A DNA stretch of 64,000 nucleotides from Neovahlkampfia damariscottae (taxonomy: Eukaryota > Heterolobosea > Selenaionea > Neovahlkampfiida > Neovahlkampfiidae). The stretch spans positions 29,241-93,240 of the forward strand of contig JABLTG010000076.1 in assembly GCA_016618085.1 (NCBI GenBank). Reading direction: 5' to 3'. Made by a program: the position numbers and the translations under genes. This document shows, piece after piece, positions 4,518 to 62,705 of this stretch (positions within the stretch are counted from its first letter, which is position 1; each line of letters begins with the position of its first letter). The notes below the pieces were generated by a model that saw only the letters and a program-made list of their open reading frames with translations, did not search any database and was not told where the DNA came from.

Positions 4518-4551
4518 TGAACCAATCAAAATTCTGTTTGTCAGAATATAT

Positions 4552-4926
4552 TCATTGTTCTGATTTGACTTCTGGTAATTCTTTTGATCTCCAATTTTGC
4601 ATTCCTTTTTCTAAATGATTCAATTTTTCAAAACCTAAATCTCTTAATGCTTTTACTCCAGCAATTGAACGATGAGCACTCAAGCAAATACAAGTAATTT
4701 GAATATTTGGGTCTAAGTTTAATTTTTTTAATCTTTCATGAAAATTCCAAGGTTGGAATAGTGAACAACTTATAGCTCCTTCAATATGTCCATGTTTATA
4801 TTCTGATTCTGTTCTCACATCAACAATTTGGATTTCTTTTGGTTTTTTTTTCACTATTTCCAAAAGGTCTTCTGGTGTGATAGTTGGTATTTCACCATGA
4901 GGATCAAATGTCCACATCCATGACAT
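4552..4926 (-). CDS. Single-domain rhodanese-like sulfurtransferase
   Basis: The 124-residue protein is one rhodanese domain without introns. It has the conserved IVDVRTESEYKHGHIEGA segment and the active-site loop CLSAHRS, with Cys in the position that carries the persulfide. Family members move sulfane sulfur or act in sulfide and cyanide metabolism; single-domain forms also serve as generic sulfur carriers. No targeting peptide is obvious. ACCAAT lies about 28 nt upstream of the ATG. The acceptor substrate cannot be inferred. Confidence 0.85.
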   Translation of the reverse strand: MSWMWTFDPHGEIPTITPEDLLEIVKKKPKEIQIVDVRTESEYKHGHIEGAISCSLFQPWNFHERLKKLNLDPNIQITCICLSAHRSIAGVKALRDLGFEKLNHLEKGMQNWRSKELPEVKSEQ

Positions 4927-5069
4927 TTGAGAAATTTGAGCAATGAACAGATGATTGGTTTAAAAAATTACCAATTATAGAAATTTGCTTTCAAAAAAAG
5001 TTTCATTCAAGAATATAATTGTAACATTTCTTTTGAATCATGCACTAAACTCCAAAAATTGGTATTCCT

Positions 5070-6466
5070 TCAAAAAAATGTTGAATTTGAGGAGAAATTT
5101 CTGATTTGATAAATCCCATCTTTCACTTCTGCTTCGTCAATGTACTTCAAAAAATATTCATGCCATATTTTACTTCTATTTGCACCAAAAGCTTCAGTAA
5201 TTTGAATATCCAACCTATACATATCACCTGAATCAAAATCTGCGCAATCTAAACCAATTACATTTTTCTTAAATTGAACTACTTCACATAGAGTCAATAA
5301 AAAATAAGTTTTGAAGACAATATGAGTATCATTCAATTTATCAAAATGAACCTTTCTTGTTGATGTTTTGTTTGGTATTAAACCTAAACTTATTCTTTTT
5401 GGCTTTTTTGTTTTTTCAAAAATGAGAAATTGATCAGAGAACAAAAAAATAACAACATTCTTTTCTTCAATCATTTGGTTCTTTTTTTTGATTTTGACAA
5501 TAGCAGAAGTTTCATCAATATAATTTGTATAATCAATAACCACTAAATCAATATCTGCTACAAATTGTTGAATTCGTGCAATGGCTTTAGCAAATTCGTA
5601 TTTTTTCTTCTTGTCATTCAATGTTTCAAGAATAGAGTCAATTTTTTGTTTTGACAAAACGAAATGGTTATAATCCACATGATAAGTAGATGTATTTTTT
5701 ATCAATTCTTTCAATAATAGAGAGTATCTTGGCAGTCTTTGAATTGGTTGGATATAAAGTGATTGAATTGTGTGACCTCCAGGTATTTCTGTGTTTTCAA
5801 ACTCTTTGTAGTTCTTTGTTAGTTTCATTATATCTTCTAAACAATCATCAAATGTGTTACAAAATTTTGCATAAATGCAGAAAGAAGGAATTTGTGAATA
5901 AAATATTTCTCCAAAATTGGTAATAGGAAAGTGCTCTAAAACTGCATGGAGTTTTGATAAAAATGAAGAATGGACAGCTATAATTTCATCTAAATTTGAA
6001 AATGTATTCACCACTTCAATTTCTTTGATAATTTTTTTTTTCAACATTGGTTCTTTGTAGTACTTTTTTATGTAAATTTTTTTTTTTGTTTTACTTGGAT
6101 TATATAAATTAAGCACCTCAGATATTCTTCTTCAGTTGTAATTATTTCTTTTAAAATGTTGTTTCGTTCTCTAAGCCCTTTTGAAATTGTTGATTTTTGA
6201 AATTGCTCCACTTTAAAATTGGTGAGAAAAAATGTTCTTTTTTTACCTAAATTTAAAAATTTATCTGTTTGTTTTTTTCTTTTAAAAGCTCTTTGAATAA
6301 AATTTATGTGTGTTTCAGCGTCAGTTGGTTTAATATATTTCAACTGGTTTTTTGGAATAAGTTTTTCATAAATTTTCAATAAACGTTCAAGTTTCTTGTT
6401 TTTCTCTCTTTCTATTAACAGTTCTTCCCTCAGTTTTTCAAAACCAGAAATTGTTTCAATGTTCAT
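5070..6466 (-). CDS. RhoGEF (DH-PH) protein, copy 1 of tandem array
   Basis: Exons are 6247-6466, 6095-6210 and 5070-6062 (442 aa). The 36-nt first intron (6211-6246) is a multiple of three without a stop, but comparison with the two paralogues shows it is removed; the second intron (6063-6094) is 32 nt. An N-terminal coiled coil precedes a DH domain (IIIEEEY-like start near residue 100, and the diagnostic QRLPRYSLLL helix), followed by a PH-like domain. DH domains catalyse GDP release from Rho-family GTPases at membranes. The start is the ATG at 6466, 17 nt downstream of ATTGGT, because the upstream codons lack an ATG. Confidence 0.88.
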
Positions 6467-6575
6467 TGTTGCCGGAAAATAAACCAATGAAAATCATCAG
6501 AAAGAATCTGGCTTTTTGAAAGTTGGTGGATCATTCTGACTTTAAATTTTTCTTTTTCAAATCAAAAATTTATTT

Positions 6576-7994
6576 TCAAAAAAATGTGCTGGATGGATTG
6601 ATGTGATAGATATCATTATTTTTATCTGCTTCATCAATATATCTCAATAAATTCTCATGCCAAAATTCAGAACGATTTGTTCCTCTTTTTTCATTTAATT
6701 GAAATTCTAATTTGACTTTCTGATTGATTTCATGATCAACTGAAATTAAACCAAGACATTTTTGTTGGAATCTAACTACAGATGTATCTGATAAATAATA
6801 ATAGTTTTTGAAACAAACATAAATTTCATTGTCTTTGTCAAAATGAACTTTAGAACGTGGTGATCTTGGAAGTAATCCTCCAAATGTAACTTTTCTCGGT
6901 TTTTTTGTTTTTTCAAAAACTAAAATGATATCTTTGAACAAAAATAAAAGACATTCAATTCCCAAAATTTCTTCTTCTTCTTTAGTTTTCATTGGAAGAA
7001 ATTTGACCATTGCGAGATCTTCTGTGACGAATTTTGTGTAATCTAAAGTAAAACGCATCAAATCTTTTGTAAAAGCATCAATTTTTTCAATAGTTCTTTC
7101 GATGTCGTATTTTCTTTTGGTTTCATTGACCAATTGAAGAATTTCATCAACTTTTTTTTTTGCTGATACAAAATGAGAGTATTCTTGATGTTCTTCATCA
7201 GTGTTTTTAATAACTTCTCTTAGTAACAAAGAATATCTTGGTAAGCGTTGAATTGGTTGGATGAATAATGATTGAAAAGGATGATTTCCAGGAATCAATT
7301 TTCTTTGTTCTTCTAATAGAACATTGAACCATTCTTTTGAATTTTTAAGATCATTGAATTTATCCATTGCTTCATTATACTTATTGCAATACCCAATATA
7401 GTGCATAAAAGTAGGTGCAAAGTCTAAAATAATTGAACCAAAATCTGAAAGGGGAAAATTGGACATTTTCCATTTTAATTTTTCCAATAAAGTTGTGTGT
7501 ATAGCGATTAAATCATCTAAATTCAAAAAAATCTCCGAGATTTGATTTGGCTTCAATATTTTTTTGTTAATGATGGGTTCTTTGTAATACTATTTTTAAG
7601 AAAAAATTAAGAAAATTTTTTTGATAATACGATGTTCAAATAGTTCAAACTATTCACGTAATCAGATTCTGTTTTTATAATTTCCTTCAAAATGTTATTT
7701 CTTTCTTTCAATCCTTGTGATAATTTTGAAGTGGAAAATTTTTTCACTATTTGAATTTTTTAGTTAATTTGGATTTTATATACTAAATTTCAATAGATTT
7801 TGAGTGTTTTGTTTTCTTTTGAATGACTGTTGAATTATTGTCAAATGAGTTTGTTCTTCTGTTGCTCTAAGGTATTTTAACTTCTCTTTTGGTACATACT
7901 CGGAGTATACCTTGAGCAATTTTTCAAGTTCCTCAATTTTCTTTTTACTCTCTTTCAGTTCTTTCCGAGCTTGTGCAAGTGTTTCTTCGCTCAT
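6576..7994 (-). CDS. RhoGEF (DH-PH) protein, copy 2 of tandem array
   Basis: Exons are 7784-7994, 7631-7746 and 6576-7589 (446 aa; introns of 37 and 41 nt). The domain order is that of copy 1: N-terminal coiled coil (KIEELEKLLKVYSEYVPK), DH domain with IQRLPRYSLLL, then PH. The middle exon is 116 nt in all three copies and the intron positions are identical, so the array arose by duplication of an already split gene. The start is the ATG at 7994 (MSEETLA), with ACCAAT about 27 nt upstream. Its likely target is a Rho/Rac GTPase, possibly the Rac-like protein at 24.0-24.6 kb, but specificity is not visible. Confidence 0.88.
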
Positions 7995-8130
7995 TTGTTG
8001 TTTTTTAAAATACCTATTTGATTGGTCAAATTTGTACAACAAATACCAAGTGGGAAACAAGTTAATTTCAAAGAAAAATTGTTAATTTAATTATTTCAAG
8101 AATTTATTTTGAAAGACTATTTTTGATGCC

Positions 8131-9553
8131 TTAAAAAAATGCACTTGATGGATTAATATGATAAACATCATTGTTTTTCTCAGCTGCGTCAATGTATTTC
8201 AATAAATTTTCATGCCAAAAGTCACAACGATTACATCCTAATGTATCTTTAATTGCAATTTCAATCATCACTTTTTGATTGGTCTCAAAATCAACAGAAC
8301 ACAATCCGATGACTTTATTTTTATATTTGACCACAGCACTTTCAGATAAGTAAAAATATTTCTTGAAAGTGATGTACATTTCATTTTGTTTGTCGTAATG
8401 AACTTTTCTTGATTGTGGTTTGCTCCCCAAGACAAAAGATACCTTTCTTGGTTTTCTTGTTTTTTCAAACATCAAAATAATATCCTGAAACAAAAAAAGA
8501 AGAGATTCAATTTCTATTGGATCAGTTTGGTCAACCTTTTGTTTCATTGGAAGAAATTTGACCATTGCTAATTCTTCACTTAAGAATTTTTCATAGTTCA
8601 ACTTAAAGTACATTATATCAGCTGTAAATTGCTCAATTCTTTTGATTTTCTTTTCAATTTCATATTTTTTTTTGTTTTCATCAACCAATTGGAGAATTTC
8701 ATCAAGTTTTTCTTTTGCATGTACGAAATTTGGATATTCTAGATGATTCACGTCAGTTTTTTTGATAACTTCAGCTAACAGTAATGAATATCTTGGCAAG
8801 CGTTGGATTGGTTGAATGAATAATGATTGAAGTGGATGGCCACTGGGAACATATTTTCTTTGTTCATCAAGGAAACTTGAAAATTCTTTTGATGATTTTT
8901 TCAAATCATTAATTCTATTCATAGCTTCGTTGTATTTATTGCAATAGTGAATGTAAAGCAAGAAATCTGGTGTTGTTTCCAAAAATAAATTTCCAAAATC
9001 TGATTTAGGAAAGGCGTCCATTTTCAATTGTAACTTGTTCAAGAAGGATGTATGAATCTTAATCAAATCATCCAGATTCAAAAAAATCTCAGAGATTTCT
9101 GTATCTTTGAAGAACTTCTTTTTAACAATTGGATCTTTATAAAACTAGTGGTAAAAAAATTAGGAATTTTTTTTTGTAATTACAGTGAGCAAATGAATCA
9201 AAGAGGTAACGTAGTCATTCTCCGTCTTCACAATTTCTTTAAGTATGTTGTTTTTTTCTTTCAATCCTTGTGCTTCTTTTGAACTTGAAAATCTTGTCAC
9301 TTTGAGGTTCTTTTTTAGTTTTTTTTTGACTTTTACAGAGATTTAATAAATTTTGAGTGTTTTTTTTTCGTTTGAATGTCTTTTGAAGATAGTTTATGTG
9401 AGTTTCTTCTTCTGTTCCTTTTAAATATTTCAATTTTTCTTTTGGAACGTATCCTGAATAAACTTTTAAAAGCCTCTGTAATTCTTCAATTTTGGAATCC
9501 TTTTCTTGAATTTCTTTTGTTAGTGACAGTATTTTTTCTTCCTGTGAAGTCAT
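8131..9553 (-). CDS. RhoGEF (DH-PH) protein, copy 3 of tandem array
   Basis: Exons are 9337-9553, 9184-9299 and 8131-9144 (448 aa; introns of 37 and 39 nt). It is closest to copy 2: the last exon is 1014 nt in both, and both end with a ...YHINPSS(T/A)FF tail. DH motif IQRLPRYSLLL is present and a PH-like domain follows. An ATG at 9568 is also in frame but lies only a few nt from the ATTGGT site; the ATG at 9553 aligns with copy 2 and was chosen. All three copies point the same way with short spacers that each contain a prom-type CCAAT site. Confidence 0.88.
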
Positions 9554-9721
9554 TTTTCTGTGTAACATCTGATTGGTTCATTCAAATTTGGCAATTTAAA
9601 CCTCCCAAAGAAATCATGATACTCTGACCAAGAATTTACGAAATTTTGATGTTTCAGATGAAAGTTCAAATCCACGTGTTTTGATTGGCAGATTAAAAAA
9701 AAAAAAGACGTTGAACAAACA

Positions 9722-10536: not shown

Positions 10537-10542
10537 ATTGGT
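10537..10542 (+). promoter_or_regulatory. ATTGGT promoter element of kelch gene
   Basis: Perfect ATTGGT 22 nt before the kelch ATG at 10565. It is a representative of the motif found before most genes here. Confidence 0.55.
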
Positions 10543-11731: not shown

Positions 11732-12892
11732 TTATTTTTGATTCTCATTTGATAATTTAAGCATCGATTTTACGTGTCCATTATTGCCCAATTTTTGAAA
11801 AATTTCCAAGGCTTTTTGTGAATTTTTTTCAAAACCAATTCCTTGTTCATAACAGATTCCTAATTGATATTGTGATTCCACATGTCCTTTATTTCCAATT
11901 TCTGTTAAAATTCTTAATCCTGTTCTTGAATCCTTTTCAACACCTTGTCCACTTAACAAATTCTTTGATAATTCATGTAATGAATCTAAGTATCCTCTTT
12001 TTCCAGATTTCATAAACCATTGATTTGCTTCTTTTTTGTTTTCTTTTACTCCACAACCGTTTTGATAACACATTCCAATTTCATATTGAGCTTGATGAAA
12101 ACCTGAAGCACCTGCTTTCAAAAACCATTTAAAAGCTATTTTTTCATCTTTTTCTACACCATAACCATTTTGATAGCAAACACCAAGTTTATGTTGTGAA
12201 GGAAAATTATCTTGTTCAGCAGATGTTATGAAATATTGAACTGCTTCTTTATATTCTTCTTTATCAAAATAATGTTCACCAACTTCATATTGTGCTTTTG
12301 GATGTCCATTTTTAGCAGCCAGTTTGAAAAAGTACAAAGCATGACTTGAGCTTTTTTCAACACCAATTCCATCTCTATAGTTTATAGCTATATTGTATTG
12401 TGATTTTACATGATTTTGTTCAGCTGCTTTATAATACCATTTCATAGCTTCTTCAAGATTTTTTTCAACTCCAACTCCTCTTTCAAAGCTAATTGCGAGG
12501 TTATATTGGGCTGTAGCATAGCCTTTGAAAGCAGATTTTAAATACCACTTAAAAGATTCTATTTTGTTTTTTGGTGTTCCAACAGCTGTTTCATAACATA
12601 GAGCCACTTTGTTTTGAGATATTTCGTTTCCATTTTTGGCTGAAAGTAAAAACCACTTAAAGGCTTCTTTATCATTTTTTTTTTCTTGATAATAAATACC
12701 CACTTGGTATTGTGCTGTTGCATCTCCTCTTTTTGCTTTTATAAATAATTCGTCGGTTGAAGTGTCTTTGTTGTAAAGGTCTGGAGTACTTATTGATTTT
12801 CTGTTTTTTGAAAGTTGTTTTTTATCTTTGAATGAACGGTAAGAATTGGATTTGAATGCTTCTTCCATTACTGCATTTTGTCTATTGCCCAT
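11732..12892 (-). CDS. Sel1-like repeat protein
   Basis: This single exon encodes 386 aa. After a 45-residue basic, Ser-rich head, about nine Sel1-like repeats of 36 residues follow, each with the pattern A.(Y/S)Q...Y..G.GV.K....A..W. Sel1 repeats form alpha-solenoids that scaffold protein complexes. The N-terminus MGNRQN puts Gly at position 2, so myristoylation is possible but position 6 is not ideal. An ATTGGT site (12906-12911) sits 14 nt upstream and a second ACCAAT overlaps the ATG. The substrate complex is unknown. Confidence 0.88.
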   Translation of the reverse strand: MGNRQNAVMEEAFKSNSYRSFKDKKQLSKNRKSISTPDLYNKDTSTDELFIKAKRGDATAQYQVGIYYQEKKNDKEAFKWFLLSAKNGNEISQNKVALCYETAVGTPKNKIESFKWYLKSAFKGYATAQYNLAISFERGVGVEKNLEEAMKWYYKAAEQNHVKSQYNIAINYRDGIGVEKSSSHALYFFKLAAKNGHPKAQYEVGEHYFDKEEYKEAVQYFITSAEQDNFPSQHKLGVCYQNGYGVEKDEKIAFKWFLKAGASGFHQAQYEIGMCYQNGCGVKENKKEANQWFMKSGKRGYLDSLHELSKNLLSGQGVEKDSRTGLRILTEIGNKGHVESQYQLGICYEQGIGFEKNSQKALEIFQKLGNNGHVKSMLKLSNENQK

Positions 12893-13160
12893 TGGTTATG
12901 ATTTGACCAATCATTGGATTCTTTGAAACGTTAAATCTTTTTTAAATATTTTTCTAATCTTTTATTTGTAGAATTGAAAAAATTAACAAAAGATGGAATA
13001 GTTGATTTTGATTGAAAAAAATATTATTGTGTCATATGAACAGGAAATAGATCAAGAAAAAATTTTAATTCCAAGTGAAGTTCAATCGTTTCAGAGACTG
13101 ATTCCATTATATACAATATGCATTGTCAATTTGGAAAAGTTGAATCTTTGAATAGTTCTT
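12893..13160. other. Spacer with coding-like fragment
   Basis: This contains the Sel1 gene promoter. On the plus strand an open stretch without ATG (about 13004-13151) encodes roughly 48 residues of ordinary composition ending in TGA, with a stop in the same frame just before it. It may be a gene relic, and I cannot identify it. Confidence 0.25.
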
Positions 13161-14323: not shown

Positions 14324-14369
14324 CTGAATATTTGATTGGACAAGGAAAACTTGAAGAAAAAAAAACAAA
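14324..14369. promoter_or_regulatory. 46-bp divergent promoter with one TCCAAT site
   Basis: Only 46 bp separate the ATG at 14323 (minus) from the ATG at 14370 (plus). The single recognisable element is ATTGGA/TCCAAT at 14335-14340, which presumably serves both directions. Confidence 0.55.
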
Positions 14370-15201
<832 letters not shown>

Positions 15202-15341
15202 AAATTATCCGTTGAAAATTTATCCGAAAAATAAGACAGTTTTCTGTTCGCATTGTATGAACGTTTAAATCCCAATTATAAAAATAAACTGGATTAAAAC
15301 TGACCAATAGTTTCATTGATTAGAGATAATTGACAAAACAA

Positions 15342-46821: not shown

Positions 46822-46846
46822 AAAGAAGATATTTTCACATAAATTT

Positions 46847-50673: not shown

Positions 50674-50770
50674 CTCAAACTGTTTTGTCCAATCAGATTC
50701 ACGAACTAATTTATGAGATAAAAATAAAAAAGAGTCAGTTTTTTTAAAAATAATCAAAACTTGCATTATT

Positions 50771-52424
50771 TCAATTTCTACTTGTCATTTTCAAATTCAA
50801 ATTTTCTGCTTTTAAAACAAATGTTGCATCCACCTTTACTTTATCATTTTCATTCATTAATTCAACAAAATATCGTTGTAAAATCATTGAGCAAAGTAAT
50901 GGTGCTTCAGTTTGTGCGAATAATTTTCCAACACAATCTCTACTTCCAGCAGAAAATGGGATCCAAGAAAATCTTAACATTGAAACATCTTTCAATCTCT
51001 CTGGAGACCAACGATCAGGATCAAAAATTTCAGGATTTTTCCAAACATTTGGATTATAATGAAGACCTACAATATCAATTTCCAAGTAACTCTAAACCTT
51101 TAATCTTGAATAAACGCTTACATCTGTAGGGAATGGATATCCATCAATTTCAGTTCCATATTTACATTCTTTTGCAACTGAGATAGCAGGTGGGAACATC
51201 CTCAATGTTTCATTTATTACTTGATTTAGATATTTCAATTTTTCAATATCTTTATATTCCAACTTTTCTCTGCCTTCTAAAACTTTAATTATTTCATCAT
51301 ACACTTTTTGTTGGATATTTGGGTGTTGAGCCAGTTTCCAGAACAAAAATGACAATAAACTTGATGTTCTAAAGATGTTATTCATGAAAGAAAAATTACG
51401 TATCATGCCCTGCAAAGAGAAATGTTAATGATTCGTCAATCAATCCTTGATCTGGAATTTTGTTTCCATTTTCATCTTCAGCATCCATCATAAGAGCAAG
51501 TAATTCTTTTCCTGTGCTCTTTTTATTTCCTTCCCTTCTGCGTTTTATCAATTCTTTCACCATGGAATTCATTTTTCTTTTGTTTTTCAGAAATCTCAAA
51601 TTGGAAGGTAATGGAAGGTACTGATAATAAAAACCAAAAAGAGCAATCATCATAGCTTTATATGTTATGCATTGTTTTGTACTTACTCATAAATCCAAAA
51701 TCTTCGATTATATCTTCCCATAAAGTCGACATTTCATCAAAAAAACTTTCATCTTCTGTTCCAAATGCAGCTGATGCAATTATTCTTAAAGTTAATTTTG
51801 ACAATTCTGAAGTAAAATTTTTAAGATTCATTGATTCTGATTTGTTCAATTTTTTCCATTTTTTGTCCATAAAATTTGTTGTTTCATTAGACATTATATC
51901 GAATAATTTGGACACATTTTGAGGTGCAAAAACAGGTGATATTAAAGTTCTTCTGAATTTCCATTCGGCACCCGAAGAAGCAACTAATCCATTTCCCAAC
52001 AAAGTTAGAAAAATATCAACAATCGCATCAGATTTTGGAAAATGTTTTCCTTTTGTCACCATCACCTCTTTAATGACTTGAGGATCTCGAACAAAAATTC
52101 CTTTTAAAAATTGAACAAAAAACCAAAAATGGAAATTTTACCTTCAAGAAACAAAAAATAATAAATTAAAACAGGTTCTGGTTTTTCCAATGCCAATTGT
52201 TTAAAATATTCAAAACAATTTTTTCTATCAATATAAGGAAAAAATTGACCAATTCCATAGTTAAAAGGAAGCTCTTTCATTTTTTTTAATTTTGGATTTT
52301 TTTTGTAAAGTTGTTTTCTTTTGTGTTGAAAGATTATGGTGAAAACAACCATCCTCAGAAAAAAGAAACCAAAATAGAGTATTGGTAATAAAATTAGAGT
52401 GAAAAATAACCACACTACCTTCAT
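50771..52424 (-). CDS. Cytochrome P450
   Basis: Five exons: 52142-52424, 51687-52100, 51400-51655, 51122-51368 and 50771-51091 (506 aa; introns of 41, 31, 31 and 30 nt). An N-terminal membrane anchor (MKVVWLFFTLILLPILYFGFFFL) is present. Splice three completes the I-helix AGHDTTSS. The K-helix ETLR and the haem loop FSAGSRDCVG (Cys near residue 453) are intact. It is a microsomal monooxygenase most like the CYP4/CYP3 clans. The substrate is unknown. It is divergent from the SDR gene across 37 bp, so the two oxidoreductases may be co-regulated. Confidence 0.95.
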
Positions 52425-52461
52425 GTTATAATAAACCAACCAGATTCAAGAATTTTGTCCA
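52425..52461. promoter_or_regulatory. 37-bp divergent promoter
   Basis: The shortest space between divergent start codons in the window. It contains ACCAACC rather than a perfect ACCAAT, and TCCAAT overlapping the plus-strand ATG. Confidence 0.5.
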
Positions 52462-53570
52462 ATGAATGATTATTTAGAATCAGTAACCGATTTTGTTTCA
52501 AAATCAACTCCGACAAAAATATTACTTGGTGTAGCTGCTGCTTACTCAGGATTATATGTTATTACAAATGGTGTAATTCCTTTGGTCACAAGAAATAAAA
52601 ATGGTTACAATTCAAATACAACTGCTGAACATGTTGTCAAAGATGTTGATTTAAAAGGAACGGTAATCATTGTAACAGGTTCCAATGGAGGTATTGGTAA
52701 AGAAACGGCTCGTGTTTTAGCCGCAAAAGGAGCACATGTCATCATCTCTGCAAGAAATATAAAAAAATTAAATGACACTAAAAAAGAGTTAGAAACTGAA
52801 ATAAAAGATGCCAAAATAGATGCTATTGAACTTGATCTTGGTGATAAAGATAGTGTTATCAATTTTGTAGAAACTTTTAAATTGTTAAAAGTTGGTTTAA
52901 ATTATTTAGTTCTGAATGCTGGAGTAATGACAGACTCATACGTCAAAACAAAAGATGGATTTGAATCGCATATCGGTATCAATCATATTGGACATCATAA
53001 CCTCACAATGTTATTGTTACCTTTAATGAAAGAAACAAAAGGTGAAAAAAGAATTGTTGTTTTATCATCAGCTTTACATTCTTCAGGGGAAAAGAAAATC
53101 TTATTTGATGACTTTGAAATGGAAAAATCATATGTAGGATACACTCCTAGATACTCACACAGCAAGTTAGCTAATGTTATGTTTGCAAATGAATTGAACA
53201 AAAAATTGAAAAATGACAAAATTGACATCACAGTGAACTCAGTACATCCTGGAATCATCACAACAGAGTTCGTTTCTATTTTAAATTTTTTAAAAAAAAT
53301 TCTTCAAGATTACATCGTGATGATGGTGTTGGAAAAAAAATTGCTAATGTTTTTATTGCTCCACTTTTAAATTTAGTGAAAAAAAATATTGGACAAGGTG
53401 CTGCAACATCTGTTTTTGCTGCTGTTCATCCTGAAATGGAAGGGATTGGAGGTTGTTATTTATCAAATTGTAAAATCATTGATCCTTTGAAATATGCAGA
53501 AAATGATGATAATTGTAAGCAATTATGGGAATTGACAGAAAAATTGTCAAATGAAAAATACCCTTTTTAA
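52462..53570 (+). CDS. Membrane short-chain dehydrogenase/reductase (retinol dehydrogenase-like)
   Basis: Exons are 52462-53267 and 53309-53570 (355 aa). The 41-nt intron has the rare donor GTTCGT; no other choice restores HPGIITTELHRDDG. An N-terminal hydrophobic segment (LLGVAAAYSGLYVI) precedes the Rossmann fold: TGSNGGIG cofactor loop, LNAGV, the catalytic Ser in VLSSALH and YSHSK with catalytic Tyr and Lys. The sequence style is that of RDH11-14/WW-domain oxidoreductase-like SDRs that reduce lipid aldehydes or ketones. Coenzyme preference is not clear. Confidence 0.92.
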
Positions 53571-53641
53571 ATACAATTTCAAGTTAATGAATTTAAAACT
53601 CGGATTTACTTCAATTTGAATAAATGTGTCTAAAAATACCA

Positions 53642-53647
53642 ACCAAT
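53642..53647 (+). promoter_or_regulatory. ACCAAT element of dioxygenase gene
   Basis: Perfect motif 11 nt before the ATG at 53658. Confidence 0.5.
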
Positions 53648-53657
53648 CAAATCATCA

Positions 53658-54380
53658 ATGTTCTCAAAACAAAAACAATCAGAAATAAAAATACACTCAA
53701 AAGAAAGTGGATTTCCCATATACAAAATGACAAATGAAGACAATTGTATCAAATTTTTATCAAAAAAAACTCTAATTCCAAAGGAACTCAAAGATGTGCC
53801 TGGAGCAGTTTTTGTACAAAATGTTTTGTCAGGAGAAGAATGTGATCAATTTATCAAAATCACAGAATCAATGGGATACGGAATAGCACCTATAACAACA
53901 GGAAGGGGCATGATTGTCAATAATGATATTCGAAACAACAAAAGAGTAATTTGGCAAATGGAACAAAAAAACAAAATATTGGAAACTATTTTTTGTCGAA
54001 TTAAAAAATACGTTCCAGAAGAGGTTAAATTAATGAATTCTAATATATTTGAACCTATTGGATTGAATGAGAGATTGAGATTTTATCGATACAAAGGTGA
54101 TGAAATTTTCAATCAACATTATGATGGTTGTTTCCCTCGTTCTTCAAATGAAATGTCACTTTTAACATTCATTGTTTATTTAAATGATGATTTTGAAAAG
54201 GGAGAAACTACTTTTTATGATTATAATGGAAAAATGTCTTCAAAAGTCAAACCTGTCAAAGGAAGTTGTTTGATGTTCTATCACGGTCATCATCCATGGA
54301 GCCCTTTACATGAAGGTTCAAAATGTGAAAATGGGACAAAATATGTCTTAAGATCTGATGTAATGTTCAAAAAGAAATAA
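53658..54380 (+). CDS. 2-oxoglutarate/Fe(II) dioxygenase, prolyl-4-hydroxylase-like
   Basis: The intronless gene encodes 240 aa. Iron ligands are visible as FNQHYDG (His and Asp) and HEGSKC (His), with an Arg in KYVLRSDVMF placed to bind 2-oxoglutarate. The core LLTFIVYLNDDFEKGETTFYD is typical of the P4H/EGL-9-type double-stranded helix. These enzymes hydroxylate protein prolines or other targets using oxygen. No signal peptide, so a cytosolic or nuclear role is more likely than collagen-type modification. Confidence 0.9.
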   Translation: MFSKQKQSEIKIHSKESGFPIYKMTNEDNCIKFLSKKTLIPKELKDVPGAVFVQNVLSGEECDQFIKITESMGYGIAPITTGRGMIVNNDIRNNKRVIWQMEQKNKILETIFCRIKKYVPEEVKLMNSNIFEPIGLNERLRFYRYKGDEIFNQHYDGCFPRSSNEMSLLTFIVYLNDDFEKGETTFYDYNGKMSSKVKPVKGSCLMFYHGHHPWSPLHEGSKCENGTKYVLRSDVMFKKK

Positions 54381-54463
54381 AAATTTATTTTACCAGGGTA
54401 AAATTTAACCAATCGGATGCCTTGGGAATTTTCATTGGACAACAAAGTTGAATAAAAAAAAAC

Positions 54464-55608
54464 ATGAGTAATTGGAACAACCCTTTGTTATATGGAACCG
54501 ACTGGACTTATTTATATTATAATATTGATTATGGTATGATGGATGGTTGGTGTCATGGTTTAAAAAATGGTTTTCTCAAAAAAGAAGATTATTTCAGTTT
54601 CAACCAATGTAGTAATTTAGATGGTAAAAAAAAAATATTTTTTTTGATTTTTAGAAATGAAAACAAATATGATCAGCACTGATTATGGTAATTTCCTTCA
54701 AAATGAAACAAACATTAGAGTTGATGTTATTGAAGAAAAAGCAACTGAATTTGTTGCTGGAATTTTTAATGAATTTCGTTTTCATGCAACTGAACCACTT
54801 GCTACATTCTTAGATTTTGTCACGTAAAAAAGAAAAAAAAATTTTTTTAACATTTTCAAGTTATCCTTATATGATTAACAACACATTAAAAATGATTCAA
54901 AGTGTAAGAAGTGGAAAAAGTGCTTTGGAAACATATTATAAACTACATCCACTCGGGTATTATTCTTCAATTCAATCAGTTTCTGCTGTTAGTTCAATAG
55001 ACGAATTATACTCCATTGTGCTTGTTGATTCACCAATCGGAAAATTTTTTACCAAAACTGTTAAACAAGATTTTGAAGAATTTTCAATGGAATTTATTAA
55101 GAATTTACTTTATAAAAATTGGATTGAAGCATTTTATGATTATGTTCAAAAATTAGATGATATTACAAGAGAAAATATGTCAAGAATATTAGAATTTGAA
55201 GCAGATCAAACAGTAATCACAATTACAAAGAATTCATTTAATTTAAAAACTGAATTACCACCTGATGAAAAATTATCACTTTATCCAAAAATTGGTCAAT
55301 TGACAGATTATCATGTTGAATTAAGTAAAGCAGCAGATGAAGAAAAACTCAAAGAATTATTAACACCATATCCAGAATATGCTGAAATGTTTCAAAAATC
55401 AACACAAGGTGAAGCAATTACAGATTTATTCGCAAAGAGAACTGTCATGTTAAACAAATGGTCTTTTGATGAACAATTTCATTTTGGTGTCTTTTACTCA
55501 TTTTTAAAGTTGAAAGAATATGAAATTAAGAATTTAGCTCTTGTTGCAAATTGTATTACACTTTCAACTCAAGAAAAAATCAACGAAAAAATTATTGATT
55601 TGAACTAG
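54464..55608 (+). CDS. V-type ATPase V0 subunit d
   Basis: Exons are 54464-54623, 54655-54823 and 54861-55608 (358 aa, normal for the family; introns of 31 and 37 nt). Conserved blocks include NIDYGMMDGWCHGLKNG, STDYGNFL, EPLATFLDFVTYPYMI, ILEFEADQTVITIT and EQFHFGVFYSFLKLKEYE. Subunit d caps the membrane proteolipid ring and couples it to the V1 stalk for proton pumping into acidic organelles. ACCAAT at 54408-54413. Confidence 0.96.
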
Positions 55609-55626
55609 AAAAAAAAAAATAAAATT

Positions 55627-56757
55627 TTATTTTTTTTTTGTTAAATTTATAAAAGAAGAAAATAAAGTTTGTCTTTTTTTTCTACCATCCAGTTTTCTAC
55701 TACTTTCTGCATCACTTCGTGTTCGTTTTATAGGTGCCATATTTTCAGTTTCAAAAATTGTTTGTTCTTCTATGCTCTCATAACTTTTTGATTTTTTCAC
55801 ATCAGAATTATTTGAATTTCTTGTTTTTGATTGATGAATATCTTTAGTTGAGATATAATGTACATTTGGTCTTTTTTCTTTTGGTGAATTTAAATCTTCT
55901 TCATCCACATTTACTTCTTCAATGTCTTCAAGTTTTAAATCGTTCACCATTTCATTTGTAAGGACAAAATCTTTTGGTGCTAAAGTTTCTATTCTTTCTT
56001 TATCAAAATGTGTTGTATAAATCTCTTTGATTAAATTCACATCTTCCTCTAGATTAAAAATTTCGGCATGATGTTTTATCAAATACTGAGTTGATTTTGT
56101 CAAAAGAGCACTATCTTTATAATCATCCATAGTAGGTACTTTCTTTGCGGTCATACATGGAGTCATTACTTTTGCTAAATTTTCAATCTTTTCATAAAAA
56201 AGAGTTAACAATTTTTTTTTACTTTCATTTTCTCGTTCACTGAGTCAATTTGAAGCAATAAATAAAGTAGGATATTTAATGTATTTCTTTCATGTTTGTT
56301 CATGTGTTCTACCATTGATCTGAAAATCCAAACTTTTTTATCAGAACCAATTTTATCTTCAGTTTTTGCAAGCTCCAAAAAAACTCCATAATTTTCATAA
56401 CCAAAAAAAGGAACAGGTAACTTTAATATCATTTGTCTTAATACTGAACTGACAAATATCGGTTTGCTTTTATTCAAAATAGCTTCGGTTTCATTTGCTA
56501 AACATTCAAAAACAAAAATAAAATTTACGGTCAAAGGTTTTTGAATCATATTCAGCATAGATTTCATCAAGTTTTAAAACAGAAGAACTTTCACGAAATA
56601 TACCTTTGAACTTTAAATTCTCCTCTTTTGAGCACAGATTTTGACATGTTTGTTTCAAGACGATAGGAATTTTTTCATTTGAATGATCTGGTCTGTTCAT
56701 TATTTTAGTAATAGTGCTACCTTGTACAGGACAAAACTTCTTCTTGTTTACTGACAT
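55627..56757 (-). CDS. RhoGAP-domain protein
   Basis: Exons are 56529-56757, 56223-56497 and 55627-56187 (354 aa; introns of 31 and 35 nt). A RhoGAP domain fills residues 10-190: the arginine finger is in FKGIFRESSS, followed by the FVSSVLRQMILKLPVPFF helix. The C-terminal 120 residues are charged, Ser-rich and probably disordered, ending in a basic tail (FINLTKKK). It would stimulate GTP hydrolysis by Rho/Rac. The stop is 18 bp from the V-ATPase stop (convergent). Confidence 0.87.
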
Positions 56758-56820
56758 ACCGTAGCTAAAAAAAAAATGGCCAATCAAATTGTCTGTTAAG
56801 TTGATGGAATTTTTATTGGC

Positions 56821-58831
56821 TCACAAAAAGAATTTTCTCAAATTTATTGTCATTCTGTTTGATTCAATTTCCAAAAGTTTCATAGATCCGTCTTTTGATG
56901 CGGAGAGTAAATGATTTTTTCCGTCAAATTTAATTTGGCAGATGTCAAGTGAATGAGTGTAAATTTCGTGAAGAATTTTGAATTTCATATCTTTAATTTC
57001 AACAAATTGGATTATATTTTTGGTTGAAGTGACAAATTTTGTTTGATTCAATGAAATAAGACTAGAAATTGTTTTTGGAAAAATGAGCAATTTTGTTGAT
57101 GTGTTTTCTTGAAGATTTGAAGAGAACAATTCATTTTCTTCATCTATGTAATAAATAGTTTGGTTTTCATCATTGAATGATAAAAAATTTCCTTTCAATT
57201 TTAGTTTTAATTCTTGTTTTTTCAAATCAAAACAATATGTTTCATTGAATTTTGAACAGCAAATCAACAAACTTTGATAAATTTTGAATTGAATTATAGG
57301 TGATTCTGAAATATTAATCATAGATTCATTGATGAAAATATTCCCCTTTTCATCAGAAAATATCAATTTTTCATCAAAAACAATCCAAGCATTTTTATCA
57401 AAATTTCCAAATTTCTCTTCATTTGAATCATTCAACTTGAGAATTTCTTTTCCTATTCGGATCCAAATAAATTCTTCATTACAATAAAAATAATCAACTT
57501 TTGGCTTTGAAAGTACCAAATCATGATTTTTTTCAATGAATATTTTCAAATTTCCTTCTATGTCTAATCCAATAATTTTATCTTTGAAAAAAGAGATTTT
57601 TTTCAATTCAGATGAAAATTCAAAATTATCAATTGATATTCTTGATCCTGTATTATCCTGGTTTAATGAACGTATCTTTTCTGGCTCTCTAGTGACTTCA
57701 TTAAAATTCACTAAATCAGATGCTTCTTTATCAACATAAGTAAAGAAAGTTGAATCAGAAAAACTTGAAACTCTTTCAGTATGCACTGGCGCTAAGACTT
57801 GGCTTGTTCCAGAACACCCTTGATTGAATCCTAAATTCCTTAAATCACATCTAACAATTGTAATTTTATTATCAAAAGCAACCTTTTCAAAAACACCTGA
57901 TAAACTTTTGAGCTTTATTTTCCAACTTGGGTAATCAACTTTTGTATAATTTGGAATAAATGTTGGATTGAAAATAACTTGTGGTTTATAAAGGAGTGTT
58001 TCGTTCAATAATTCGGGATTCTCAACATCATAGCAGATTAAGATTGCCATGATACCAAATTCTGTTTTGAATATCCCTGGTTTTTCCCCAATAGACATTT
58101 TTCCAGTATCATTTGGATGTTTTCTTTTTCTGTAACTACCAATCAATTCACCAAATCTATTGATGAAAAGTGAGGTGCAAAATGCTTCTTTCTGTTTGGT
58201 CAATTCTAAAATTGTTCCTAAAATTACATGAACTCTGTGTTTTTTAATTATTTCTGAAATTGATTTCAAAAGAGGATTTGTTTTGAAATTAAAATCTCCA
58301 GCATGATCAACTCTTCCAATAAAATTTTCTGGAAAAATAACAATATCAGGTTTTTTTTCTTGATGATGTAATTTTTTGTTCATTAAATCATCAAAGAAAT
58401 TGGGAAATTTGTCTGCAGGAATGAAACCACTTTTTGATTTTTAAATTTTTTTTCAATTTTTTTTACCACTGAACTACCATTATTTTGATTTTGGAATTGT
58501 GATGAGTTGGATACTTATCAAGTGAAGGATCAATTTGAATGAATTTTGGATCCATTTTCGTCCCTGGAAGTTCAACTTTCCATTTTTTATTTTTTTTAAC
58601 GGGTTTTGAAGGTAATCCAGAAGGGGCTGGAGGTGGTTTTGAAGGTACTTTAGATAATTCAGGTTCTACAACTGATAAATCAATCTGATTTTGAGTAATT
58701 CTTGTGTTTTTTGAAGTTATGTTTATTATCAAATCACCTTGTTCTTTGAATAAATCTAAACGTGTTTTTTCAACTGTTTGTGTCTTTTTCAAAGAATTAA
58801 TTCCTTTCTTTAGGTCTGAAGGGTCGAACAT
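56821..58831 (-). CDS. Nitrilase-superfamily domain fused to a beta-propeller
   Basis: Exons are 58467-58831 and 56821-58429 (657 aa; 37-nt intron). After a 100-residue Pro-rich head, residues 110-330 form a carbon-nitrogen hydrolase with the full triad: Glu in IVIFPENFIG, Lys in YRKRKHP and Cys in AILICYDVEN. The remaining 300 residues lack introns and read as degenerate WD40-like blades, the last being clear (ICQIKFDGKNHLLSASKDGSMKLLEIE). The amidase would hydrolyse C-N bonds of small amides; the propeller may recruit partners. An out-of-frame ATG precedes the chosen start by 16 nt. Confidence 0.82.
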
Positions 58832-58864
58832 TATTTTTTAGAAACTCCATGATGATTGGGTATT

Positions 58865-58960
58865 TTACAACTGTTCTTTTTTATTTTTAGATTCAATTTG
58901 AACCTTTTTCCTCAATTCTAAATTCATATTTCTAACATGTTTAACTTCCAAAATCTTCAT
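58865..58960 (-). CDS. Possible 31-residue basic peptide gene
   Basis: A short frame MKILEVKHVRNMNLELRKK... ends in TAA and lies about 23 nt after an ACCAAT (minus strand). The predicted helix is strongly basic. Length alone makes this uncertain; it could be an upstream reading frame of the nitrilase transcript. Confidence 0.3.
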   Translation of the reverse strand: MKILEVKHVRNMNLELRKKVQIESKNKKEQL

Positions 58961-58982
58961 TTTCCATCAGTTCATCATTTTT

Positions 58983-58988
58983 ATTGGT
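58983..58988 (+). promoter_or_regulatory. ATTGGT element between divergent frames
   Basis: 41 nt before the glycosyltransferase-like ATG at 59030, and also placed to serve the minus-strand 31-codon frame. Confidence 0.5.
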
Positions 58989-59029
58989 TCAAAAAAATCT
59001 GTTAACCGACTCAGCATCAATCACAATTT

Positions 59030-60352
59030 ATGAACAAACTACTTTTGTTTTTCATAATTCTACTGAGTCTGACGTTCATAGGATTCTATTTATTTCAATT
59101 TAAAAACATAAATGAGATGCTAAAAGAAAAAATAAAAAAAAACTTTAAAGAAAAACAAACATTCTTTAAAGTGAAAAAATTGAAAAAGAAATTTCCAATT
59201 GTACGAGTAGTAGTAAATGCAGAGATTAGAGACAGAACAGGTCGTTTATATTTATCTCACACATTATCCAATTTAGCAAACAATTTTGATAATTTTGGTA
59301 TGTTCTCACGTTATAAATTTTATGGTTATGAAAGAGCATCATCACATCCAAATGTAAAAACTGCTGATCCAAGATTTGAATTGATTAAATACAAACATAA
59401 TTCAAAATTAAAAACCAAAAAGAAAAATATCAATGAGGCTTTATATTACCTCAAAAAAGAGTTCAATACTGCAAAACTTGAAAATATACGAATTTTTCAT
59501 GATGAAGCTTTGGATTTTGTTGAAATCATGGAAAATTTTCATCAAAGAAAATGTGATGGATCTGAGATTTTTCTGTATCTCGAAGATGAATACAAAATGT
59601 GTGATCATGCTATTGGTCACTTTTTATCTGTGTTCCAATGGGCAGAAAGACATATTGATGAATGGTTCACAATTAGAATGTCAACAAATTTAAATGGTCT
59701 AATGTTTCAATGTAAAGATATTCCGAAACTAATTGAAGTGGTTACAAAAAATTCACTTGTTTCACATTCACTTCCTTTAGGTGATGCTTTGTCTCGATTT
59801 TGGGATCCTTTCGCACATAACATGAAAAGAAAACATTTCACATACCGATATAACTTATTTTCAAAACATATTCATGGTAAAAATGGTTGTTTTGATTTAA
59901 TGATCAACGACAAACTTCACAAAGCAGAACATTTTGATTGGAGGTGCGAAGAATATATGTTATCACCATGTCCTGTCTCAGTGAAAGATTTAACATTTAG
60001 AGAATATCCTCAGATAGATATACCACTAAATATGACAGAAAGAGAGACATTAATGAAACGATTAGGTCTTACTCTTCACATCACTGAAGATACAGAATTT
60101 GGAGAGTCCTGTGATACTCATTGCAAGAGATATAAAAAATCATGTATACGTAATGCATTTCAAGTTGTAAACAATTGCGAAATTTTAAGACATATGTTCA
60201 AAGTTGACAGATGCGTCAATTTTATTTATAGAAATGAACAATTTTATCCTGCGTATCATCAGAGAGATCAAATTATGATCACATTGTCAGAAATGATTGC
60301 TAATTGTGAATTTTCATTACCTGGATATCAAAGAGCTTGTGTTTGTGGATAA
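59030..60352 (+). CDS. Type II membrane glycosyltransferase-like protein
   Basis: This single exon encodes 440 aa. An N-terminal signal anchor (LLLFFIILLSLTFIGFYLF) and a basic stem lead to a lumenal domain. FLYLEDEYKMCDHAIG has the look of a nucleotide-sugar, metal-binding acidic motif. The C-terminus is Cys-rich (CDTHCKRYKKSC...NNCEIL...ACVCG), resembling the C-terminal Cys domains of N-acetylglucosaminyltransferases of the MGAT5/MGAT4 type. The specific family is uncertain. The expected place is the Golgi. Confidence 0.6.
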   Translation: MNKLLLFFIILLSLTFIGFYLFQFKNINEMLKEKIKKNFKEKQTFFKVKKLKKKFPIVRVVVNAEIRDRTGRLYLSHTLSNLANNFDNFGMFSRYKFYGYERASSHPNVKTADPRFELIKYKHNSKLKTKKKNINEALYYLKKEFNTAKLENIRIFHDEALDFVEIMENFHQRKCDGSEIFLYLEDEYKMCDHAIGHFLSVFQWAERHIDEWFTIRMSTNLNGLMFQCKDIPKLIEVVTKNSLVSHSLPLGDALSRFWDPFAHNMKRKHFTYRYNLFSKHIHGKNGCFDLMINDKLHKAEHFDWRCEEYMLSPCPVSVKDLTFREYPQIDIPLNMTERETLMKRLGLTLHITEDTEFGESCDTHCKRYKKSCIRNAFQVVNNCEILRHMFKVDRCVNFIYRNEQFYPAYHQRDQIMITLSEMIANCEFSLPGYQRACVCG

Positions 60353-60435
60353 TAAATATTTGAACCTTTTTTAACTGTTTTTTTTTATCCAATAGAATTA
60401 AGTTTTGTTGCACGGATAAATTCAAACGCAGCAAA

Positions 60436-60706
60436 ATGGATACGAAACAAAAAGGTGATGGTAGAGTAATTTATAAAGAAGATAGATCATATCTTCAATT
60501 ATTATGGTTACAATGGGAAATTAGAACAGTCACGTATGTTTCAAAAAAAAATTAAAAATTTAACATAGTTATATGTGTGAACCATGGGAAAAAATTATAA
60601 TTCGTATGAATTTTTAAAGAAAAAAATATTAATTCTTTGAATAGAAGGTTTTATTTTCGCAACAATATTGTTGTTCCTTGGTTTTGTAAAATTTCGTTTT
60701 TTTTAA
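60436..60706 (+). CDS. Serine palmitoyltransferase small subunit-like protein
   Basis: A 64-residue protein is encoded by three tiny exons: 60436-60533, 60569-60603 (35 nt) and 60645-60706 (introns of 35 and 41 nt). The spliced product carries LLWLQWEIRTVTYMCEPWEK followed by a single hydrophobic span (FIFATILLFLGFV). This matches the ssSPT/SPTSS family core, a Y-(Q/E)-x-x-T-x-x-Y-x-x-EPWE motif and one transmembrane helix. The subunit activates serine palmitoyltransferase in the ER and sets acyl-CoA choice in sphingolipid synthesis. TCCAAT lies about 40 nt upstream. Confidence 0.82.
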
Positions 60707-60831
60707 TGATAAAAAAAAAATTTAAATTGAAAAATTGAAATAAATTTTCATTTTGCATAAAAAAAAAATTTAAAACATCCTAGAAGTTGACCTATCAAAT
60801 CATCTTACTTTGAAAAAAAAAAAACGCAAGA

Positions 60832-61572
60832 ATGAAGTTTATTCTTTTTTGTCTTTTGACACTTTTCGTTTGTTCTCAACAACAAGTTCCATTACCATTA
60901 CCAAAGAAATATCACGGACACTCATTTGGTAACAAATTAGCAGATGTTAAACTAGAAATTTTTTTAAACATTCCATGTAGGTGAATTTAAAAAATTTTAC
61001 AAGAAATTAAACTTTTTAGGTCCTTACACAACAAAGTTCTGGGAAGGTGCTGGTCGTTTCATTCTTGAAAATTATGTCAAAACAAACAAAATTAATTTGA
61101 TAATTCATCAATTCCCACTTCCTTATATTGTAGCTTCATTTGAATCAAGTAAATCTGTTTATGTTGTTGAAAAATACCAAAAGAACAAGTTATTGGACTT
61201 TATTGATTTTGCTATTATGAATGGTCAATTAATTTCATCAAGAACTGTTTTTAACAATACAGGATCTGAAATTAGAGATTTAATTTATAACAAGCTAGTT
61301 TCTGGTTTTAGTGTATCTAAAAATGATTATAACAAAGAAATGTATGGATCTGATTTTGCAATTTTACAAAGAGATGGTTTTGAATTTTTAAATTTTTTTT
61401 TTAACTTTTTTTAGCTTGGAAATTTGGTGCAAGTCATGGAATTTCAGGAACTCCAAACTTTGTTATTAATGGTGTTTATTTCTCAGCTGAAAATTTGACC
61501 AAAGAATATTGGCAAAAAGTTATGAAAACTTTGGTTGACAAAAAAACCAATTTTCAATCAAATCAATCATAG
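60832..61572 (+). CDS. Secreted DsbA-like thioredoxin-fold protein
   Basis: Exons are 60832-60976, 61020-61376 and 61415-61572 (219 aa; introns of 43 and 38 nt, the second with a GTTTTG donor). A signal peptide (MKFILFCLLTLFVCS) is followed by the thioredoxin start VKLEIFLNIPCPYTTKFW and, near the end, the DsbA-type cis-Pro loop GISGTPNFVINGV. The active-site position reads C-P-Y-T, so only the first Cys remains and classical dithiol oxidase activity is doubtful. It may be a glutathione-transferase-like or structural member. No CCAAT site is obvious upstream, an exception in this window. Confidence 0.8.
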
Positions 61573-61807
61573 AAAGCACAATAGAGTCATAAATTGTCAT
61601 AAATACTTCGTAGTGTTTTCAAAAAGAATCTAATTCAGTGCCAGTTGAGATGCCAGCAAAATTTTTTTGTCAAAAGGAATTCTGAATCTTCAGATGGATT
61701 TACTCAAATCTCAAACAAATTTCCAAATTTGCATGAATTTATTCCAAACCTCTCTTCTAAGATTCTAACCAATTTTATTGGTAGGTCAGTTCTCTCATCC
61801 AATCAAA
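61573..61807. other. Spacer before the SH3b-M15 peptidase gene
   Basis: No reliable gene. An open frame across 61645-61854 has poor composition and overlaps the peptidase start. TCCAAT at 61799-61804 and a nearby ACCAATTTTATTGGT inverted pair form the promoter. Confidence 0.4.
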
Positions 61808-62609
61808 ATGTTATTGTACTTGCTTTTGATTGTTGCCATTGCAACTGCTCGTAAGAAAAATTAACTATATTAACCAAATAAACAAGATCCTTCAGGTACC
61901 AGACTCAGAGTAAATACAGGAGACGGACTGAACGTTAGAGTGAGTCCTTGTACGAATGCCAGAATCATCACAACCCTTGGAAATGGTGTCGTTGTGACAT
62001 CCACTGGAAATACTAAAACAGATTGTGGATATCACTGGGTTCAAGTCAAAGGTGGTTTTGCAACTGGTTGGGCTGCTTCAAAATTCTTTGTTGTTGTGAG
62101 AGGATATGACAGAGTTTATGGACCTGGAATCAATGGTTTACGTGATGTATTAATGCAAAAACTTCAAGAACTTGCTGTTTTAGTCGGTTCACGTGTTAGA
62201 GTTCATTCAGGTTGCAGACAAGGTAAGTTTATAGTTTTCAAGTTTAAAATTCCTTACAGGTGGTTCGAGATCACATGCAGAATGTAGAGCAGCTGATTTT
62301 CATGTAGACGGTCAATCAGATGTTGCTGTTTATAGAAAAGCTTTAGCTCAAAGAGGCAGATTTCGTGGTTTTCAATTCATCTATCACACACCTGGAAGAA
62401 GATCTTGTTCAACAGGAGAACATAATCACGTTGCATATGATGGAAAAGTAAATCAATTCTGTTATGAAAGAACATGTAATTGGGCCAAAGAATGTAGCTA
62501 TGTGTCAAAAAACAACAAAAAAGTTATGTTTGAATTTAAAGAAACTCCGACCTGCAAAGATTTTGGAAATATTGATTGTTGGGCTGAAAAGGAAGAAATT
62601 TCAAAATAA
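61808..62609 (+). CDS. Secreted SH3b plus M15-type zinc peptidase
   Basis: Exons are 61808-61850, 61896-62222 and 62260-62609 (239 aa; introns of 45 and 37 nt). A 14-residue signal peptide is followed by a bacterial-type SH3 domain (GDGLNVRVSP...TGWAASKFF) and then a D-Ala-D-Ala-carboxypeptidase-like M15 domain. The zinc ligands are in SHAECRAADFHV (His and Asp, six residues apart) and EHNHVAY (His). The last 40 residues are Cys-rich. The domain pair is characteristic of enzymes that bind and cut bacterial peptidoglycan, so a role in digesting or killing bacteria is plausible. The introns show it is resident in the host genome. Confidence 0.85.
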
Positions 62610-62705
62610 AACCTTTCTTTAATTCAAAAAATCCAATTTGTCTTTTCACAACATTGACCAATCATTTGCATCCTTTTTTTCCACAGAAGAAGAAACGTGT
62701 TGTCA

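Follow-up and report, generated by a model that had tools for sequence, protein, structure and literature searches.

A CCAAT box in either orientation stands shortly before nearly every gene start in a 64-kb window of Neovahlkampfia damariscottae DNA

In a 64-kb window of DNA from Neovahlkampfia damariscottae (64,000 nucleotides of contig JABLTG010000076.1), the pentamer CCAAT, read on either strand (CCAAT or ATTGG, hereafter the box), stands shortly before the start codon of nearly every protein-coding gene. Among 45 start codons, 44 have a box anywhere between positions -105 and +2 relative to the ATG, and 40 have one within the 60 bp upstream; exactly one box is present in 33 of the 45 start windows. 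The pattern is real and strong in this window, to which all counts reported here refer. The box is probably a near-universal, orientation-free promoter element bound by an NF-Y-type complex; binding, the NF-Y identity of the binder and the position of transcription starts are what we infer from the sequence. An earlier note on this DNA had claimed such an element before most genes, which these counts confirm, and 15 of the 15 coordinates that it gave (14 quoted as examples, and 4521) coincide with a CCAAT or ATTGG to within 1 base.

The window consists of AT-rich, compact eukaryotic DNA (GC 27-32%). Its genes contain introns and code for eukaryotic proteins, including RhoGEF, RhoGAP, Rac, RGS, Kelch, Sel1 and BTB/SPRY proteins, a P450, a glutamate synthase, the AC39 subunit of the V-ATPase and a triosephosphate isomerase. 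Genes were located with a small gene finder that we wrote and that does not use the CCAAT motif; its output was corrected by lists of open reading frames (ORFs) and by frame maps to give the 45 start codons. The first curated list held 43 starts, genes 4517 and 9722 (genes are named by the position of their ATG) having been found later. ORF or gene-finder output supplied 36 of the 45 starts, and 9 were set on frame maps with the boxes visible. The choice of the ORFs to be counted as genes was also made with boxes already visible, and a motif-blind list of 40 uncorrected starts, which retains wrong starts (e.g., 42540, 43447 and 59117), serves as a safeguard. Four candidates were excluded before the starts were counted: a carboxylesterase ORF at 49 that is truncated, the kinase-SAM part at 1259-2524 (which is adjoined by CCAATCAG at 2528 and probably forms one fused gene with Kelch), an ORF at 62946 that has no Pfam match, and an ORF at 63944 that has just 56 bp upstream inside the window and no box there. 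The non-coding sequence upstream of the first 43 starts has a median length of 99 bp, 3 starts being scored 0 through a faulty mask. Predicted introns are mostly 30-60 bases long with GTAA at the 5' end, a type towards which the gene finder is biased.

In the 60 bp upstream of the first 43 starts, a box was found in 38 cases, compared to a mean of 8.2 (maximum 17) in 500 dinucleotide shuffles and a mean of 9.7 (maximum 20) in 2000 circular shifts of the start list. The enrichment is confined to positions -60 to -1: each 60-bp bin between -300 and -60 contains a box for 8 to 13 of the 43 starts, and the intragenic bins for 1 to 6. Among 509 strand-collapsed 5-mers, CCAAT ranked first upstream of the 36 starts from ORF or gene-finder output (31/36 vs. 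8.0 expected, p = 7 × 10−16), and the top 7-mer upstream of the first 43 starts was CCAATCA (23/43 vs. 0.65 expected). The five starts without a box in the 60 bp upstream are 24601 (box at -103), 43120 (box at -74), 28032, 52462 and 60832.

Such a pattern could in principle reflect chance or composition, with CCAAT being common in AT-rich DNA and starts having been chosen where boxes stood. CCAAT is over-represented across the window (288 occurrences vs. 192 in shuffles), with 195 of the 288 boxes in predicted coding sequence (4.0 per kb) and 86 in intergenic sequence (6.6 per kb), and local controls were used for this reason; the boxes were, moreover, in view when 9 of the 45 starts were set and before the gene list was chosen. 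The frame-map starts have a box in the 60 bp upstream in 9 of 9 cases, and the starts from ORF or gene-finder output in 31 of 36. Against an effect of composition or choice, however, the motif-blind list has a box at 25 of its 40 starts, compared to a mean of 7.7 (maximum 16) in shuffles and a mean of 9.0 (maximum 19) in 2000 circular shifts, and only 22 of the 92 ATG-initiated ORFs of at least 50 amino acids outside the curated starts have one; the scarcity of boxes in convergent gaps and the specific flanks of the promoter boxes, described below, also contradict this explanation. We assign it next to no probability, and for this window these controls refute it.

Comparison of gap types shows where the boxes are placed. 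Counting gap edges, a box was present in 26 of 27 tandem gaps (11.0 expected at the box density of coding sequence) and in 9 of 9 divergent gaps (4.0 expected), compared to 3 of 10 convergent gaps (3.7 expected), so that gaps containing a gene start differ significantly from convergent gaps (Fisher p = 2 × 10−5). The convergent count was initially 2/8 and rose to 3/10 with the later addition of two gaps from the ends of the list (920-1258, with one box, and 63207-63422, with none); some of the gene ends used in this analysis are approximate. Because long gaps may hold a box by chance, gaps of up to 150 bp were counted separately, with a box in 23 of 24 start-containing gaps and in 1 of 6 convergent ones (p = 0.0002). 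The box therefore follows gene starts and not intergenic DNA as such. All four divergent pairs with ATGs less than 50 bp apart (37-47 bp) have a single box, which lies inside the gap for 14323/14370 and 46138/46186 and straddles the gap edge for 27987/28032 and 52424/52462, where it overlaps the start codon of the plus-strand gene as CCAATG. The other five divergent pairs are further apart (168-392 bp); in four of them each ATG has its own box no more than 60 bp away, and in the remaining pair, 24601/24856, the boxes stand at -103 and -42.

The earlier note had also described the element as occurring in either orientation, and here too the counts agree with it: the box nearest to the start is in sense orientation in 25 cases and antisense in 19, ATG-overlapping boxes included. 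Sense and antisense boxes stand at the same distance from the ATG (median -29.5 and -30, respectively; Mann-Whitney p = 0.93, over the 43 starts preceded by a box). Flanks, read in the CCAAT direction, were compared between 47 promoter boxes and the remaining 241 CCAAT sites in the window, which include four boxes later assigned to genes, making the test conservative. Promoter boxes have a purine at -2 in 38/47 cases (vs. 118/241 in other boxes), A at +2 in 40/47 (vs. 94/241) and CA directly after the box in 22/47 (vs. 24/241); T at -4 (31/47), A at -1 (30/47) and C at +1 (23/47) each differ from the 241 other sites as well. T at -4, the purine at -2 and A at +2 are common to sense and antisense boxes, and the flanks thus mostly follow the box rather than the gene and resemble an NF-Y site. 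The NF-Y consensus is of the RRCCAATSR type, and an NF-Y-bound CCAAT box functions in both orientations and stands 60-100 bp upstream of the transcription start. A core element of the TATA or initiator type stands at a fixed distance from the start site and is direction-specific. The promoter boxes share the flank preference of NF-Y, the CCAAT core itself having been the search criterion; the purine rule holds at -2 and partly at -1, where T is the second commonest base.

Beyond about -4 to +9 little is shared among the boxes, which are therefore not copies of one long repeat. Genes 42240 and 43120, which are tandem paralogues, share an 11-base block that is identical in both (AACCAATAAAT), the ATTGG upstream of AACCAATAAAT and two other blocks (TTCTCCGGTCA and TCCAAAAC), and a 20-base difference in length falls between the box and the ATG. 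In the three tandem RhoGEF paralogues (5070-9568, minus strand), the orientation and distance of the box vary, which suggests turnover of the box.

With boxes masked, no TATA-like or initiator-like word as strong as CCAAT was found upstream of the first 43 starts. Among sense hexamers, ACCAAC came out strongest (7/43 vs. 0.8 expected) and is left as a lead, and CCAAC in either direction was far less enriched than CCAAT (13/36 vs. 4.0 expected). A sense CCAAC stands 9-26 bp before the ATG of genes 17247, 18446, 24856, 46138 and 52462, and represents a box that has decayed or else a word of initiator type. AATAAA in either direction is raised in the unmasked 60-bp window (23/43 vs. 8.4) and was not outstanding in the strand-specific, box-masked scan. 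A scan of 44001-64000 for bacterial promoters found 104 sites where 105 were expected; such a scan has no bearing on a eukaryote.

ACCAAC is a plant-Myb-like word, and in trichomonads Myb-like proteins have taken over as initiator or general promoter factors. Similarly, a different, lineage-specific factor (e.g., a Myb-type or other small DNA-binding protein) might have assumed this role here, with a box that just resembles an NF-Y site. The enrichment of ACCAAC on the sense strand, the presence of a small Myb gene (31888) in the window and a distance between box and ATG that is shorter than the NF-Y distances reported elsewhere would fit such a takeover; conversely, the purine at -2, the C and then A after the box and the independence of orientation fit NF-Y, and the far weaker CCAAC may be a degraded box. 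We regard a lineage-specific factor as unlikely and favour an NF-Y-type complex as the binder because the core, the flanks and the occurrence in both orientations match NF-Y.

The distance from box to ATG has a median of 30 bp and ranges from -103 to overlap with the ATG, and no direction-specificity is seen among the boxes. Three boxes begin 9-12 bp before the ATG (4517, 25508 and 61808), and at three starts a CCAAT overlaps the ATG (12892, 28032 and 52462); the overlapping CCAATG is the sole box within 60 bp at 28032 and 52462, and 12892 has two more boxes further up. For such near or overlapping boxes, either the 5' untranslated regions (UTRs) comprise a few bases or none, or transcription comes from upstream of the box, or another start site is used. 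Between box and start, sense ATG is significantly depleted (3 ATG vs. 15 CAT, p = 0.008; 5 vs. 17 without the coding mask). In the 40 bp upstream of the box the difference is not significant (11 ATG vs. 20 CAT, p = 0.15) and further up there is no depletion, whereas counted from the ATG the depletion extends to about -60 (10 ATG vs. 29 CAT, p = 0.003). The sequence is A-rich over the final 10 bases ahead of the ATG (45% A, 23% T), and further upstream A and T are about equal; strand composition gave no help in placing transcription starts in the window. The ATG depletion and the A-rich leader fit start sites near the box, on either side of it.

The same counts bear on the possibility that transcription starts upstream of the box, which would then lie in the 5' UTR and either affect the translation or stability of the RNA or work as a promoter element downstream of the start. 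The three starts whose codon is overlapped by CCAAT agree with a box in the 5' UTR, as does a depletion of upstream ATG that may reach about 60 bp, beyond the median box; the depletion upstream of the box alone, however, is not significant, the near-equal use of both orientations at equal distances is contrary to an element acting at the RNA level, and the single boxes of the 37-47 bp divergent gaps would demand overlapping transcripts. We therefore consider a 5' UTR box distinctly improbable. The earlier note had argued that use so near the ATG and at such frequency would make the box a core promoter element, with 5' UTRs that have to be tiny. Within this window nearly every start indeed has a box, which lies near the ATG irrespective of orientation, has NF-Y-like flanks and is the strongest signal found upstream; strict core status does not follow from these counts, and a tiny 5' UTR would be implied only by transcription starts on the downstream side of the box.

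Under the NF-Y explanation, the box that stands some 25-30 bp upstream of the ATG in nearly every protein gene, in one orientation or the other, would be bound by an NF-Y-type CCAAT-binding complex that bends the DNA and keeps a short stretch nucleosome-free; RNA polymerase II would start a short distance from the box, on the gene's side, and in divergent pairs 37-47 bp apart one bound box would serve both genes. Several observations weigh against this explanation. No NF-Y subunit was found among the genes annotated in the window, and the evidence comes from the DNA sequence of this single 64-kb window. Gene 60832 is without any box (it has CCTATCA), and gene 24601 is boxed solely at -103. Not every flank is free of orientation, C at +1 being found in 6/20 antisense vs. 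17/27 sense boxes. Boxes that overlap the start codon or lie 9-12 bp from it are difficult to reconcile with a factor bound upstream of the transcription start, unless 5' UTRs are nearly absent. Finally, the median of 30 bp between box and ATG contrasts with NF-Y sites at a median of 94 bp upstream of the start site in mouse and with CCAAT at a median of 83 nt upstream of the initiator in Phytophthora, as given in the parts of the two reports used here (PMC6624317 and PMC3599244, respectively).

A further step, which we put forward tentatively and hold to be somewhat doubtful, is that an NF-Y-type complex serves as the general promoter factor of this lineage, with one orientation-free box in place of TATA and initiator elements for almost every gene and with firing in both directions from gaps of less than 50 bp. 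In the systems compared below, CCAAT boxes have an auxiliary role and occur at only part of the promoters; if the present proposal is true, a histone-fold factor can define promoters largely alone, the divergent gaps (37-47 bp, one box, two genes) would offer a minimal natural system for how NF-Y sets start sites and direction, and the box would help the annotation of gene starts in the source organism.

The boxes assigned to individual genes are listed in Table 1. Several other features of the window were recorded. No tRNA gene was found in it by ARAGORN, and it has 0 Rfam matches. The P450, the oxygenase and N-termini of mitochondrial look suggest an aerobic protist. Among solved structures, the Rac-like protein is best matched by chains of Rac1 and Rac2, which says little on lineage; the search of genome contigs with the RhoGEF protein matched 64 stretches, of which 0 were confirmed as relatives, and that of viral contigs with the glutamate synthase matched 1 stretch, with 0 confirmed. 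Relatives of the ORF at 63423-63944 (minus strand, no Pfam match) are encoded by 15 of 27 pattern-matched stretches of viral contigs, and this ORF at the end of the window is possibly a viral insert. Kelch, protein kinase and SAM domains are encoded in 1259-3934 (minus strand), which may be one fused gene. The actin-like gene (26832-27987, minus strand) has a broken reading frame and represents a pseudogene or a sequence error. The DUF1810 and NADAR genes adjoin (44774-46138); both belong to families connected with the chemistry of NAD or ADP-ribose. The 794 bp at 43980-44773 are without a convincing ORF, contain ACCAATCA at about 44129 and may hold a non-coding RNA gene. The N-terminus of gene 62706 has what we take to be a longin-like resemblance.

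Table 1. Boxes assigned to gene starts in the 64-kb window (genes named by the position of the ATG).
Gene	Gene strand	Product	Box	Box strand	Remark
3934	-	Kelch	3976-3980	-	
4517	-	small, mitochondrial-type N-terminus (judged by eye)	4522-4526	+	
4926	-	rhodanese	4954-4958	-	
6466	-	RhoGEF	6484-6488	+	
7994	-	RhoGEF	8021-8025	-	
9553	-	RhoGEF	9572-9576	-	
9722	+	signal-peptide-like N-terminus (judged by eye)	9684-9688	-	
10565	+	Kelch	10537-10541	-	
12892	-	Sel1 repeats	12891-12895	-	overlaps ATG; more at 12907-12911 (+) and 12913-12917 (-)
14323 / 14370	- / +	14370: triosephosphate isomerase	14335-14339	-	single box, 46-bp divergent gap
15342	+		15304-15308	+	
17247	-		17276-17280	+	
17630	+		17607-17611	-	
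18446	+		18431-18435	-	
21149	-	prolyl oligopeptidase	21169-21173	-	second at 21195-21199
23938	-	M1 aminopeptidase	23955-23959	+	more boxes nearby
24601	-	Rac-like GTPase	24700-24704	-	distant (-103)
24856	+		24814-24818	-	
25508	+	weak G-alpha match under Pfam cut-off	25496-25500	+	
27987 / 28032	- / +	27987: actin-like; 28032: Sel1 repeats	28029-28033	+	single box, 44-bp gap edge; overlaps + start codon
31228	-	membrane protein (judged by eye)	31250-31254	-	
31888	-	small Myb protein	31909-31913	-	
33957	-	GMC oxidoreductase	33982-33986	+	
40073	-	glutamate synthase	40101-40105	-	
40466	+	RGS	40425-40429	+	
42240	+		42186-42190	+	within 11-base block identical in paralogue 43120
43120	+		43046-43050	+	at -74
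44774	+	DUF1810	44740-44744	-	
46138 / 46186	- / +	46138: NADAR protein	46165-46169	+	single box, 47-bp gap
49038	-	BTB/SPRY	49053-49057	-	
50673	-	RhoGAP	50689-50693	+	
52424 / 52462	- / +	52424: cytochrome P450; 52462: short-chain dehydrogenase	52459-52463	+	single box, 37-bp gap edge; overlaps + start codon
53658	+	2OG-Fe(II) oxygenase	53643-53647	+	
54464	+	V-ATPase AC39 subunit	54434-54438	-	another at 54409-54413 (+)
56757	-	RhoGAP	56780-56784	+	
58831	-	carbon-nitrogen hydrolase	58855-58859	-	
59030	+		58983-58987	-	
60436	+	small, less certain gene	60389-60393	+	
61808	+		61799-61803	+	
62706	+		62658-62662	+	

The CCAAT box bound by NF-Y in animals occurs in either orientation. In mouse embryonic stem cells, according to the sections of the report drawn on here, NF-Y is present at 3191 promoters and absent at 21,195 (about 1 in 8), maintains nucleosome depletion at the promoter and determines the start site (PMC6624317). 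The present box resembles the mouse one in its CCAAT core and promoter-proximal position, whereas it differs in being found at 44/45 starts rather than a fraction of promoters and at a median of 30 bp from the ATG rather than 94 bp from the start site. For Phytophthora infestans, the corresponding excerpt gives 1953 CCAAT hits, nearly equally in both directions, and the median distance to the initiator cited above holds where both elements occur (PMC3599244); unlike that system, which has separate initiator elements, the window has a near-universal box and no initiator-type word of similar strength. In Entamoeba invadens, also a protist, NF-Y binds CCAAT in gel shifts; of 900 cyst-specific genes 354 have the motif, which shows no preferred position across 500 nt, and the core promoter that the paper describes contains GAAC and initiator elements (PMC6581852). 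Plasmodium falciparum, with CCAAT in 140 of 297 NF-YB target genes in the extract considered (PMC5768380), is likewise an AT-rich protist with CCAAT in promoters, there those of NF-YB targets. Among the matches listed in open-licence literature, there was no report of a near-universal, start-proximal CCAAT. A positional parallel comes from microsporidia, in which a CCC-like motif (rarely GGG) directly precedes most start codons and the 5' UTR is shorter than 7 nt (PMC2803860). Common to both are one short start-proximal motif, acceptance of its complementary version and short intergenic gaps; the motif itself is different, with no link to NF-Y in the portion of that report used, and GGG is rare there, whereas the two orientations are nearly equal here. 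The enriched word here is CCAAT(CA), and among the top 5- to 7-mers listed upstream of the starts no word with CCC or GGG was found besides weak ones overlapping CCAAT-like words. The present case thus combines a microsporidian-like position with the NF-Y motif.

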